64,000 nt of DNA from Cyanoderma ruficeps (Eukaryota; Chordata; Aves; Passeriformes; Timaliidae). Under the pieces are notes generated by a model. That model was not told the DNA's origin and searched no databases. It was given only the letters and a program-made list of their open reading frames with translations. Numbering within the stretch: position 1 is the first letter of the stretch; every line of letters begins with the position of its first letter. Position numbers and translations under genes: made by a program. The stretch is taken from assembly GCA_008694505.1 (NCBI GenBank), contig VZDJ01007753.1:21758696-21822695 (forward strand), read 5' to 3'. Below, piece by piece: positions 4,046-59,834 of the stretch.

Positions 4046-4405
4046 GTTTAATTTGGAATAAAAATATTACCAAAACATTGTTGAATGCTTATTTAGTCCA
4101 CAGGCAAAAGATGGTATCTGTCTGTGTGAATAGCGACAATTTTGAACAAGTACAATATTAAACTATTTAGTATTTCACAATACTAAACTATTTGAGAAAA
4201 TACCCTAATAAAATAACAATAGTAAAAAATTCAAACTGCATTATTGGTTAGGTTGCACTTCATAATTTGGATACATGTTGTGTATCTAATTTCTTTTATC
4301 TCTTTTCTAGTGCACAAAGATATGCACAAATATCTTGCTTCAAACGCTGCACTTCTTTTTGCTTGATATATATGCAAAACTCAAGGATTATCCAATAAAG
4401 AACAT

Positions 4406-4445
4406 CCTTGATGGCCTTTATCAAGGGTAATAAAGGTCATGAAGG
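4406..4445. repeat. Imperfect 16-bp stem hairpin
   Basis: Bases 4406-4421 pair with 4430-4445 at 14 of 16 positions around an 8-base loop. The inner 11-bp arm (4411-4421 with 4430-4440) has one mismatch, which would be a G-U pair if transcribed. It is too short for a typical pre-miRNA stem. It could be a chance palindrome or part of an old DNA transposon; no terminal inverted repeat or target duplication was seen. Confidence 0.5.
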
Positions 4446-4967
4446 CTGTCCTTTACACTGACTGCATCTGAATTTTTTCTAGAATATTAAGACACATATC
4501 AGTATGGGCTATCATTCAACCTCGAGGTGCAGTTAAAATAGAAAAATGATGAGCAGTACTTGGTAGCTACTTATTTTACTAAACTGATCTGTTTAAAAAA
4601 GAGCATGAGATTCAGGGCAACAGAATTGTGTGGCAAGGTGGTGTCTCCTGAACTCCAGTGGAAGGTAAGTCAGAGTAAACACAAGTTTTAATTTCCCATA
4701 GCACAGAGATTATGTCCTTAGAGACTTGGGTTTTCTTCTACAGAAAATAGAGGAATTTCATCTTTCAAGCATAGCAACCAGTAATCTCTCCCTAAGGAGT
4801 CACTGCTTACATAGATGCAAAGGTTTTGTACATAATATCGGTGTGTGTATCACTTATAAACTCACAAAAATATACTGAAAAAACATACCAAATTATAAAA
4901 ATCCCATTTGGCCCAGTAAAAATCTCAAGCCTGTGCAAGTGACACCATAGTTCAACTCTGGTGAGGT

Positions 4968-10065: not shown

Positions 10066-10141
10066 GGTTTTGTTTTTTTTTTCTTGGTTTTCTTTTTTTT
10101 TTTTTTTTTCCTTTTTTTTTTTTTTTTTTTTTTNTTCTTTC
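10066..10141. repeat. Long T-rich tract with an unresolved base
   Basis: About 75 bp are nearly all T on the plus strand, broken by a few C and G bases, with a single N at 10134. It could be an expanded poly-A tail read from the minus strand, but no retroelement body is recognisable next to it. The N and the homopolymer mean the true length is uncertain. Confidence 0.85.
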
Positions 10142-10994: not shown

Positions 10995-11830
10995 TGAAGT
11001 CAGAAGACTTAAAGAGGAAAGAGCCTTTGCTCTTGGTGTGGTTTGTACAGTACCAGGAATGCTGGACCCAGATGGAGTTCACCTGTTTAAAAGGGGTAAA
11101 ATTACTTTAGCCTGTGAGTTGTCAGGGCTGATTGAGAAGGTTTTAATCTAGGTATGAAGTGGGAAGGGGATAAAACCAAACTCATCAGAGATGAGCCAAG
11201 GGGCAGCATGTCAAGTTTGGGGGTAAAATCAATAATCCAACTGAAGGGCATCTTCCATTTGCTGACTCTGAATCGTGCCAAGCACTCTGGAATGCATTCA
11301 CAGTCTTATGGAGACAAGCCGAGCGCTCCTAAGGACATAAAAATGGACAGGGAAACACCAGAGAGTTATCTCAAAGGAATTAAGGTGTGTTCCTCTAAGA
11401 CAGTGACTAGGCCTACGACCCAGCTGAGGTGCCTTTAAACCAATGCACGCAGCATGGGCAGCAAACAGGAGGAGCTGGAAGCCAAGATGCTACTGGAAAT
11501 CTGTGCTCTTCTTGCCATTACTGAAACTTGGTGGGATGAATCCCGTGACAGGAGTGTGGCTATTGATGGTTACAAGCTGTTCAGAAGAGACAGCAGAGGA
11601 AGGAGAGGCAGAGGAATTGACCTCCCTCTACATCAAGAGGTGGATTGGGTGTGGAGCGCTCTCCTTGAAGAACAGACATGAGCAAGTCGAAAGCCTGTGG
11701 ATAAGAATCAGAGATTGAGGCAACAAAGGCAAGTGAGTGGTTGGTGTCCACTACAGGCTGCCTGACCACCAAAAGAGAAGTCCACTGCTTAGACCTGACC
11801 TGATTAAAGGACATGGCATACCTCAGTGTG
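10995..11830 (+). mobile_element. CR1 LINE 5'-end fragment (5' UTR and endonuclease start)
   Basis: This is the 5' portion of a CR1 non-LTR retrotransposon. Positions 10995-11440 resemble the CR1 5' leader, with landmarks 'GGGAAGGGGATAAAACC' near 11160 and 'GGGGCAGCATGTCAAG' near 11200. From 11454 a frame opens with MGSKQEELEA and carries ITETWWDES near residue 25, the conserved N-terminal stretch of the apurinic-like endonuclease domain including its catalytic glutamate. The frame then reads DGYKLFRRD and GRRGRG before a stop at 11681. Further CR1-like endonuclease residues (ESLWIRIRD) appear in another frame near 11690, so at least one frameshift has broken the gene. Similarity fades around 11830, and no reverse transcriptase or CR1 3' end follows. 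CR1 copies are usually 5'-truncated, so a fragment keeping only the 5' end is unusual. It is inactive. Confidence 0.8.
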
Positions 11831-54100: not shown

Positions 54101-54148
54101 CATAGTCATTCCTATTGACAGAGGAAGGATAGTTGAGTACTATGATTA

Positions 54149-54286
54149 ATTCCTTTAAATTCCATTTCTGGTACATCTTGATAGGTGACATTGTGTTAGA
54201 ATGAAAGGTCTAGAAGTTAAAAGTGTACATCAAGGAAATAATACAAAATGATTGCACGTGATTAGTACTCTTTCCAGAATTAACAA
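54149..54286 (+). repeat. 138-bp perfect direct repeat, copy 1
   Basis: Every one of 138 bases matches 56333-56470, with no substitution or indel by direct base-by-base comparison. Identity begins at ATTCCTTTAAATTCC and ends at CCAGAATTAACAA. The flanks of the two copies are unrelated. The unit has no poly-A tail, terminal inverted repeats, target-site duplication or similarity to any transposon I know. It is low-copy, AT-rich DNA, not a simple repeat. The copies are 2,184 bp apart start to start. Confidence 0.98.
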
Positions 54287-56332
54287 ATTCTTTTTCTATG
54301 TGTTTACTATATTGAGTGTGGTTTTTTAAACTTTGAAGAAGTGATTTTTTTTCTCTCCTTTTCATAGTTAAATAATCACAGATTGTTTTTGAGATACAAT
54401 ATGATCCATAATATGAGATGTCATTTCAGTAAAGTGTTTCTTCTGTTTGGTCCTCCCAGTGACATAAGGTTTGTTAACTAAGAAACTTACTTGGTCTTAT
54501 GCATGAATTTCCTATGGTAGCTGGAACAATTCCTTCATCAAACTAGAGCTATTTCTGACCTGCTTTATTCTCTCACTGCTTTGGTTTAATTTTTTCTCAC
54601 TTGAATTGCATCTATTACCATTGACCACGGCTGATGTTTTAAGGGTAACAGAATTCAAGTATACCAAACTTTGAAGCAAATATTTTTCTCAACTTCAACA
54701 GTTTTTGTATCTGCCTTTGCCACTCTGGCTTGTTTATCTCAGCTAATGAACAAGTGTCATTGCCCGGAGTGTAAAAAGTAAATATGGGAGAAGATTTTTT
54801 TTTTTCAGTCCTCCATGTGGTAGAAGAAGTCTTGTTCCTAATAACTTGTTTCACATCACTTCATGAGTAAAGAGTAAGCTAAGCAGACAGTACCTGGAAG
54901 ACTGCTTATCTAATTTTTCTCATCTAAAGCAACCAGAGCAAATGTTTGCAGTTGCATGTACAAGACATCAGGTAAGCTTTTGATTTAGAATTTTTTTCAT
55001 GAAGTATGTACCTTCTGCATAATATTCCTCGTTTAAATTTTTTTTATAGACAATTGTTCTCTTATTCCTTCTAACAGCAATACTGGGGGTTTTAGACTTG
55101 AAAGTAAAGAACAATTAGAAGCTTGAATAAGTTGCTGTGTGGGAAGAGGTGCAGCACTAAACTTATACCCTAGGGAAACAAAAATAAAGTTGTGTTAAAA
55201 TGCTTATGTGCTCTCTGGGGGGGGGGTTTTGTTGACTTTAGGAGCCGAATGGTTTAACTATAAGAAGTTGTCACCAGCTGCCTGGGGAAGTAGAACTAGG
55301 CAGAATCTTCAAGCAAATATTCATACCATCCCAACTTTTACACACCTTGTTTACAGTGTCTTGGCTGTGGCATCTCCTCCACTCTCCAGAAGCTCCTGAG
55401 AAGAAAGTTTGTAGGTATCTCCTTTAATACCTTCAGCAAAAATAAAAATAAGAGGTCTTTATACTTCATTTATCCCTTTTTACCCTCTACATGTAATCAG
55501 TCAAATCCATAATCTGTGAAAGGTTTTTGTATGAGCAGAAGCTTGACTCATACACCAGAAAAACCTTTCTCTAAAGGAAGCCTTTAACATATCTAACCCA
55601 ATATTTAAAATATTTAGCAACAGAGGCCAATAAAAATCCATAAAATAAAAATGCATCTGATTCACTGTACTCACTAAAATTTTGGAAAAAAAGCTACAAG
55701 ATATAAGTTCTAAAGTTTTTAACAATCCTTACGGGGCATTTCTTTTAAATCTATAACTTCTTTGATGTATTTCAGATGCTGCTTCAGTTTAATTATACCA
55801 ACAGGAAGATACTTAAGTTGCAGGAAGATATCAATTTGCATTGTCTTTAATTTTTTAAGATGCCATGCTTGACGTGCCAATCAATAGGACCCGGTGTCTG
55901 GTAATCTGAAGTTTATCATATATCATTTAGTACTGACTGTCACCCCATATCCTCAACAGGTTAATGCATTATAGGTGAATTCAGTCATATGGCTATGAAG
56001 ATGAATAGAAACCTATTCCTTCATAGCGCCATATACATATAATGAATAGCCTAATAAATAATTAGAAAAAAATATACTTCACCCCATGTATTTTCCTATA
56101 ATTATGTAATTGTCTTCACACATCTGGGAAACAGGAACCTTTTTTCTATTGTCACAAGTGAGTTACTGCCAATAAGAAAAGATAAAAAATAATTCTAGTA
56201 TTAGCAGATAGATCTTTGCTCTCTAATCTAACTTTTCAAAAGCTACTACAGTAATGCTACTCAGACAATGCCATGGATCCTTCACAGTCAAATACTGGAG
56301 GAAGAGTAGCCAAGCAAGGGTATGGAGCTTCT
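54287..56332. other. Non-coding DNA between the two 138-bp copies
   Basis: About 2 kb of AT-rich DNA without a recognised gene or transposon. It contains a run of ten G (55217-55226) and a micro-exon-like segment at 54930-54971 (described separately). Confidence 0.5.
55217..55226. repeat. G10 homopolymer
   Basis: Ten consecutive G bases, uncommon in this AT-rich DNA and prone to sequencing and replication slippage. It is a single run, so it does not form a standard four-tract G-quadruplex motif. Confidence 0.9.
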
Positions 56333-56470
56333 ATTCCTTTAAATTCCATTTCTGGTACATCTTGATAGGTGACATTGTGTTAGAATGAAAGGTCTAGAAG
56401 TTAAAAGTGTACATCAAGGAAATAATACAAAATGATTGCACGTGATTAGTACTCTTTCCAGAATTAACAA
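56333..56470 (+). repeat. 138-bp perfect direct repeat, copy 2
   Basis: Identical to 54149-54286 over all 138 bases and in the same orientation. Left flank (AGCTTCT) and right flank (TCATTGTAGG) differ from those of copy 1 from the first base beyond the repeat. Which copy is ancestral cannot be told from this sequence. Homologous exchange between the copies would delete 2,184 bp. Confidence 0.98.
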
Positions 56471-57674
56471 TCATTGTAGGAGAGTTGTTATTTCAAGTGA
56501 TGGAAACTGTCAGATGAAGAACCAAACAGGGTACTGCATTATTCTAAATTACCAAGTCAGTGTGGGGGGAGAGAGGACAAGTTGTTCCACACTCCCTCAG
56601 AACACCAGAGTTCACATTGTACCTACTTCCTGTAATGTGAAAATTATGAGAAAATACAAATACAAATGCAAAGCTGGGGGCATACCACCCATGAGGTGTG
56701 GGTGCCTGAAAGTAATGCATGCAGTCAAAAGGAAGTAACTTGGTCAAGCAGGCAGTAAAGGAAAGCAACAGCTCTGAGAAGCATTCATGTTGTTAGGAAA
56801 TGGGGAAAGAGGGAACTCTTGCTGACAGCCACACTGTCTTCCTCTTGCATAGGCAGCAGGATGAAAGACAGTCACAATGCTGAGAGATTTTTCAGGACTC
56901 ACTGAAATTCCAAATCCGACTACCCAACAGACTGACACCTTTTTTATTGCTACTCCATCTTCTTGCCACCTTGTACTATGTACATGCACTGAATCATTCT
57001 CAGGATCTTCAACACATAGCCATTTCCTTCTTCTCCCATGCCCTTTTCCCATCATACAGTCTCCGTCACCAGGTAAGGTATGCCCTCTCAGCTTTTTTCT
57101 AATCTAATTTGTCTCAAAGTGGCAAATAGGAATTAAAAAAAAGTACTTGAAAGCAAGGTTGTGTCATTTTTTGCCAAACATTAATGGAAATTTTGAGCAC
57201 TTTTGTGCCATGTGCATATTGACTAGCTTCCTGCAAAGACCATTCAAAATATCTCTGTCTCAATTAATATGGTCAATAGCTCAGCACAAATGGGAACCTG
57301 GGGTAACGTCTGAGGGATGCTAGATACTGAATACCTATGTGTAATACTGTTTCTTTTCTCCTTGAGACTGCAATTTTCAGATCCATTTTACCAGACTTAC
57401 ATGAAGGCAAAATTCTCATGCTCTGTCTTTTTCAGTGGTCCTTCTTTGCTTACCACATGGCGAAGAATTAGCATTTGAGAGGCTACAGTGGTAAAACATA
57501 CAAGTTTGAAGGTAAAACAAGGCAGAGTCCTTTTGGCAGCTTCCCTGAACTGATATTGAGGCAGAAGAACCAACAGTCTCAAATGAGTAAAAACCATTAT
57601 GAAGTCTCTAGCTTATTATCTGTAACTTTCTCATCTGCTGCCAAATGGTGAGTAACAATAAAGTGACTGGGTCA
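56471..57674. other. Non-coding DNA with an exon-like segment
   Basis: No protein family was recognised. The segment 56853-57072 is flanked by good splice consensus but is closed by stops near its start in all three forward frames (described in the findings). The other open frames are overlapping and anonymous. Confidence 0.4.
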
Positions 57675-59593: not shown

Positions 59594-59834
59594 TTGTAAA
59601 CCATATTTTCTAATAATTGCTATAGTAGAAGTGTAATTTAGTGTATTTTTACAGGCTTAGTACTTTTTGTTCTATTGTAAACCATATTTCCTGATAATTA
59701 CTATAGATAGACAAATAATTTAGTATATTTTTATAGGGTAGTACATTTTTATATTATGGTAAACCATATTTCCTTATAATTACCAGAGAGAGAAAAATAA
59801 TTTATATTTTTATAGGTTAGTACATTTTTATTAC
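59594..59834. repeat. Three-unit ~81-bp tandem repeat (minisatellite)
   Basis: Three head-to-tail units start at 59594, 59675 and 59757. Each opens with (T)TGTAAACCATATTT or TGGTAAACCATATTT, continues through CTRATAATTRCTATAG-like sequence and a TAATTTAGTRTATTTTTA block, and ends in a TTAGTAC(A)TTTTT block. Unit lengths are 81, 82 and about 78 bp. The units differ by scattered substitutions and small indels, so the array is not recent. No CR1 or SINE similarity was seen in the unit. Confidence 0.85.

Follow-up and report, generated by a model that had tools for sequence, protein, structure and literature searches.

A perfect 138-bp direct repeat in AT-rich bird DNA, probably a young duplication left by break repair

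The stretch of bird DNA analysed here, 64 kb in length and referred to as the window, is AT-rich, with a GC content of 30–41%. No gene was recognised in it: the window holds no tRNA and no Rfam match at the gathering score, and ten open frames (some trimmed by a few bases) of the 107 with at least 70 aa matched no Pfam family at E ≤ 0.1. Its central feature is a pair of 138-bp sequences lying about 2 kb apart. The features of the pair and of the rest of the window are listed below; P0121 denotes a predicted protein from another genome that aligns to one member of the pair.

54149–54286, plus strand: copy 1 of the repeat, 138 bp, read as the derived insert (acceptor) from its identity to copy 2, a one-way 4-bp junction match and P0121.
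54149–54152, plus strand: left-junction ATTC of copy 1, either microhomology with the target flank or half of a 4-bp target-site duplication.
54287–54290, plus strand: ATTC directly after copy 1, the second half of a 4-bp direct repeat.
54291–54295, plus strand: run of five T (T5), 4 bp beyond the right end of copy 1.
54287–56332, no strand: spacer of 2,046 bp separating copy 1 from copy 2, free of N and with a base composition similar to that of the adjoining sequence.
56333–56470, plus strand: copy 2 of the repeat, 138 bp, read as the ancestral source (donor) from the gapless P0121 alignment over 56254–56472.
56473–56482, plus strand: 10 bp extra in the window relative to P0121, with best placements starting at 56473–56476.
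4396–4455: imperfect palindrome of 60 bp, 77% self-complementary, from blastn self-comparison.
10068–10140: long T-rich run holding the only N of the window (10134).
11439–11678: CR1-like, endonuclease-type open reading frame fragment, from its protein relatives.
59594–59831: AT-rich tandem array with three copies of an 82-bp unit, 78–84% alike, from blastn self-comparison.

Among the features away from the pair, the T-rich run is likely a weak point of the assembly. The frame at 11439–11678, which we take to be part of a CR1 retrotransposon, has 160 relatives at E ≤ 0.001. Among the 120 best listed, 32 contain PF03372, an endonuclease-type domain, and 14 carry a source name, 13 of them birds (Limosa lapponica 8, Grus japonensis 3, Spheniscus humboldti 1, and Mycteria americana 1) and one labelled Klebsiella pneumoniae. 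This set of relatives supports an avian origin of the window, which is very probable. Some of the bird relatives bear host-gene names, such as “mitochondrial fission process protein 1” and “nipped-b-like protein”, and are apparently misnamed pieces of retrotransposons. The entry labelled K. pneumoniae (P0072) aligns with 54% of the bird retrotransposon query at 65% identity and is possibly animal DNA within a bacterial assembly.

The two members of the pair show 138/138 identity in the same orientation, with a spacing of 2184 bp from start to start, and the match extends by 0 bases on either the left or the right side. In 64 kb of such composition, a match of this length has a chance expectation of about 10^-69. 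Apart from self-overlaps of a GATATA microsatellite at about 28.3 kb, the window contains no other exact direct repeat of at least 30 bp, and no exact inverted repeat of that size at all. The remaining self-matches, obtained by dust-filtered blastn at E ≤ 1e-3, are 78–84% and 77% alike. Comparison of the 1-kb flanks of both copies, in six pairings, revealed no left–left or right–right similarity at E ≤ 0.1. Two pairings showed a weak match, one of 33 bp at 76% (E 0.008) and the other of 44 bp at 68% in inverted orientation (E 0.02), and these lie hundreds of bases away from the edges of the copies. The spacer has a GC content of 34.5%, compared with 37.5% in the 2.1 kb upstream and 39.7% in the 2.1 kb downstream. 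The repeat itself starts with ATTCC and ends with AACAA, and neither end carries an A or T tail. These results bear out a first-pass annotation of the sequence, which had described a perfect same-orientation duplication of 138 bp with sharp ends and unrelated flanks; its remark that every other repeat in the window is diverged is broadly true. The duplication is very probably a real feature.

Other roles for the repeat were considered and discarded. Considered as a structured RNA, the 138-mer folded no better than shuffled sequences (z +1.25 and +0.30 for the two strands). Each of its six frames is interrupted by stops (1 to 7), and we attribute no coding role to it. Searches of bacterial, phage, viral, and plasmid collections yielded no related DNA.

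The direction of copying could be approached through an orthologous locus. A very large protein collection was searched with the open reading frame that spans the boundary between the end of copy 2 and its right flank, and a single match was obtained, P0121, a protein of 148 residues from a contig of 6,159 bp. P0121 reads through the locus orthologous to copy 2 in another genome, where the frame happens to be open. It aligns to the window without gaps over 56254–56472, spanning the left flank and the whole repeat with 53 of 73 residues identical, and continues in two further frames to 56699 in the right flank (21/28 and 34/45 residues). Amino-acid identity across left flank, repeat, and right flank is 69–79%. 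At copy 1 the similarity is confined to the repeat (31/45 residues), and the remaining matches are at chance level. In the other genome, the repeat therefore sits inside the flanks of copy 2, marking copy 2 as the old locus, or donor, and copy 1 as the insert, or acceptor. A comparison with the orthologous locus had been recommended by the first-pass annotation; for copy 2, P0121 shows the repeat in the corresponding place in another genome. A search of the same collection with a 71-aa reading frame across copy 1 gave no candidate, and a pattern of joined flanks, representing the empty site, had no match in viral contigs. Nine stretches that fit a peptide pattern were set aside, none encoding a relative by tblastn, as were six viral contigs that fit a 17-base flank pattern by chance, none of which resembles the window (blastn, 1e-3). 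As a side observation, predicted proteins from contigs can replace missing vertebrate alignments, with P0121 serving as an orthologue of apparently non-coding bird DNA.

The junctions provide a further indication of polarity, obtained before the P0121 match. When copy 1 is treated as the insert, its left end matches the target flank by 4 bp (ATTC) and its right end by 1 bp, whereas copy 2 treated as the insert gives 0 bp on both sides. Across 200,000 random placements within the window, a junction match of at least 4 bp arose in 1.1% per direction, or 2.2% across the four junction tests. Since the match, short at 4 bp, occurs at copy 1 only, it points to copy 1 as the insert. The ATTC pair had been overlooked in the earlier annotation. 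It is valid as a target-site duplication only if the first ATTC is assigned to the target; strictly outside the 138 bp, a target-site duplication amounts to 1 bp at most at either copy. On the basis of one orthologue, P0121, together with the junction test, copy 2 is read as ancestral and copy 1 as derived.

The age of the insert was estimated relative to the split from the P0121 genome. Divergence was taken as the fewest base changes that turn the codons of the window into the residues of P0121, and the counts are minima since P0121 is a protein. They amount to 7/81 in the left flank (the last 2 bases of these 81 belonging to the repeat), at least 14/135 in the repeat, and 7/84 and 8/87 in the right flank, where residues after a 2-residue gap are omitted. 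Minimum divergence is similar throughout, and the repeat is conserved no better than its surroundings between the two genomes. A simulation on the codons of the left flank and repeat that accounted for the open frame places the real divergence near 8–10%. The contrast between 0/138 differences separating the copies and 14/135 separating the genomes gives a Fisher p of 4e-5, or 2e-4 once three codons read as stops in the window are removed. Because the copies do not differ while the orthologous repeats differ at no fewer than 14 positions, this comparison supports an origin of copy 1 after the split from the P0121 genome, unless gene conversion intervened. Assuming no gene conversion, the insert would be no older than about 22–27% of that split (95% limit), a figure that requires no rate. 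Avian neutral rates were taken as 1.2–3e-9 per site per year, and the corresponding 95% upper limit on absolute age is 3.6–9 million years, a rough value given that these rates come from general background; titles and abstract starts in a literature search offered nothing useful on them. The insert is thus young in evolutionary terms, and zero differences do not equate to an event in living populations. The proposal in the first-pass annotation of a very recent templated insertion holds as regards templating and recency relative to the split, while the absence of differences alone permits several million years.

Taken together, we consider the 138-bp pair, with a probability of roughly 85%, to be a repair-mediated proximal duplication, or “doublet”, in which copy 1 was copied from copy 2 during the repair of a break. 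The starting point would have been a double-strand break or stalled fork between 54148 and 54287. From this opening, a 3′ end terminating in ATTC would have paired with the ATTC that begins copy 2, some 2.2 kb further right, and copied 134–138 bp of it before being released. Rejoining of the released end across the break, with 0–1 bp of homology, would leave a template-identical insert of 138 bp at copy 1, with ATTC at its start and directly after it. In this scheme we infer the earlier absence of copy 1, the break itself, and the pathway. Candidate pathways may include synthesis-dependent strand annealing and microhomology-mediated template switching or polymerase-theta joining, between which the sequence does not discriminate. 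Typical polymerase-theta insertions are much shorter. The templated insertions attributed to MMBIR or polymerase theta, as described in PMC8421209 and PMC2895639, are similar in that another template is copied after pairing over a few bases.

Repair-mediated duplications are known from vertebrates, and the survey of Pace et al. (2009; PMC2671141) describes proximal cases with a donor less than 5 kb away, a median length of 147 bp (maximum 619), microhomologies of 2–9 nt, and target-site duplications of 4–21 nt. Such events are recognised by an insert of at least 50 bp whose donor lies at a distance of over 50 bp but under 5 kb, by microhomology, deletion, filler, or a target-site duplication at the breakpoint, by the lack of a polyA or polyT tail at the insert end, and by a donor that can be told from the acceptor. 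Further marks are a single other copy in the genome and either an acceptor site that is empty in a relative or a transposable element interrupted by the insert; here the 64 kb contain one other copy, and the searches with the copy-1 frame and the joined-flank pattern brought up no copy-1 locus of a relative. The present pair combines a 138-bp insert at 2,184 bp from its donor, a 4-bp ATTC at copy 1 with a chance of 1–2%, a tail-free end beyond which the T5 run lies outside the insert and 4 bp off, and a donor distinguished through one orthologue. It resembles the published class in length, distance, lack of a tail, and 4-bp junction homology or target-site duplication, and it differs from the cases described there in being found without an interrupted transposable element, its donor being identified by an orthologous reading frame. 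It is also akin to the short paired duplications, or “doublets”, of Thomas et al. (2004, as cited in PMC2671141), which are short, local, and identical or nearly so; according to the same source, doublet surveys focused on duplicons below 100 bp, whereas the present one measures 138 bp. In some of the youngest cases reported in PMC2671141, seven human-specific ones, donor and acceptor sequences are the same, and typing of human-specific cases in 80 people found 1 of 10 still polymorphic, fixation being commoner.

An assembly error at the copy pair is unlikely. Under this explanation, copy 1 would stem from read chimerism or erroneous gap filling, and the true locus would join 54148 to 54287 or hold other DNA; the length of 138 equals k−1 for k = 139, an overlap size that a de Bruijn assembler could produce. 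False duplications, as characterised in PMC9516828, are most often separated by gaps, sometimes by a gap in read depth, and wrong gap filling also occurs. The present pair resembles them as near-identical duplicated sequence within one scaffold and differs in having no N between the copies and different flanks on both sides. There is likewise no N near the copies, the P0121 alignment identifies copy 2 as a genuine ancestral locus, and the flanks of copy 1 share just 4 bp and 1 bp with the repeat, which would be too little for overlap-based joining. An artefact would moreover have to reproduce the length, the distance, and the junction of a known kind of repair scar. The false join of overlapping contigs raised in the first-pass annotation is disfavoured by the reality and age of copy 2, the lack of nearby Ns, and the small flank overlaps. 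A second explanation, which we judge very unlikely, is that an old duplication was kept identical through gene conversion. Nearby direct repeats can convert. Against this explanation, 0/138 differences would have a probability of only about 1e-6 to 1.6e-5 at 8–10% divergence without conversion, and the homology of 138 bp is shorter than the lengths given in PMC3966225 for efficient meiotic recombination (over 200 bp in mouse cells; an estimated 337–456 bp in humans). By the same measure, the deletion or duplication polymorphism of 2,184 bp that had been predicted from exchange between the copies is possible and not required. Single-strand annealing in flies, as reported in PMC9836020, fails at 50 bp and reaches full efficiency only with 500–2,000 bp, so a certain amount of it may be possible with 138 bp. 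If the locus is polymorphic at all, a 138-bp insert at copy 1 that some chromosomes carry and others lack would be likelier than a 2,184-bp change.

Mobile elements account for the pair less well. It is highly improbable that an RNA of copy 2 was reverse-transcribed and inserted by CR1 machinery with a 4-bp target-site duplication, even though ATTC stands at the start of copy 1 and directly after it, the T5 run follows at 4 bp, and CR1-like sequence is present in the window. Both ends of the 138 bp lack an A or T tail, an argument weakened in that CR1 itself is not known to need a polyA tail. Landing 2.2 kb from the source is unexpected for retrotransposition. A polyA/T tract was published for 0 of 39 proximal acceptors, as opposed to 17 of 29 distant ones (PMC2671141). 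That a low-copy transposable element some 138 bp long inserted twice is next to negligible as an explanation. Both copies have the sharp ends that such insertions would leave, but the ends match as terminal inverted repeats at only 2 of 15 bases, the target-site duplication at copy 2 is 1 bp at most, and the window holds no convincing diverged relative (best match 53 bp at 70%, E = 0.008) and no tRNA or Rfam match. The repeat also diverges from P0121 about as much as its flanks do. Terminal repeats and duplications at each copy are thus lacking, and there are two copies, counted in the window only, in agreement with the earlier statement that transposon hallmarks are absent.

Under the preferred reading of a repair-mediated duplication, one detail at the donor deserves mention. 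The 10-bp length change relative to P0121 lies 2–5 bp past the last donor base and is most likely a coincidence, small length changes being common in such DNA. A very improbable alternative is that the insert and the donor-side change stem from one event, in which templated repair scarred the template as well as the target; to our knowledge, strand annealing models do not lead one to expect scarring of the template. If true, the two changes would have arisen together, and the copying event would have marked both ends of the exchange.

What is new here is the polarity and the relative date of the copy pair; the phenomenon itself is known, and the understanding of its mechanism is unchanged. A literature search returned no paper combining “repair-mediated duplication” with “avian genome”. 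Table 3 of the survey PMC2671141 counts six cases in chicken, and, avian cases being few in that survey, a young and polarised case from a bird is usable as a data point. Presence or absence of the 138 bp would offer a simple marker if it proves variable. Each repair scar of this kind represents one germline repair event with a readable donor, target, and junction.
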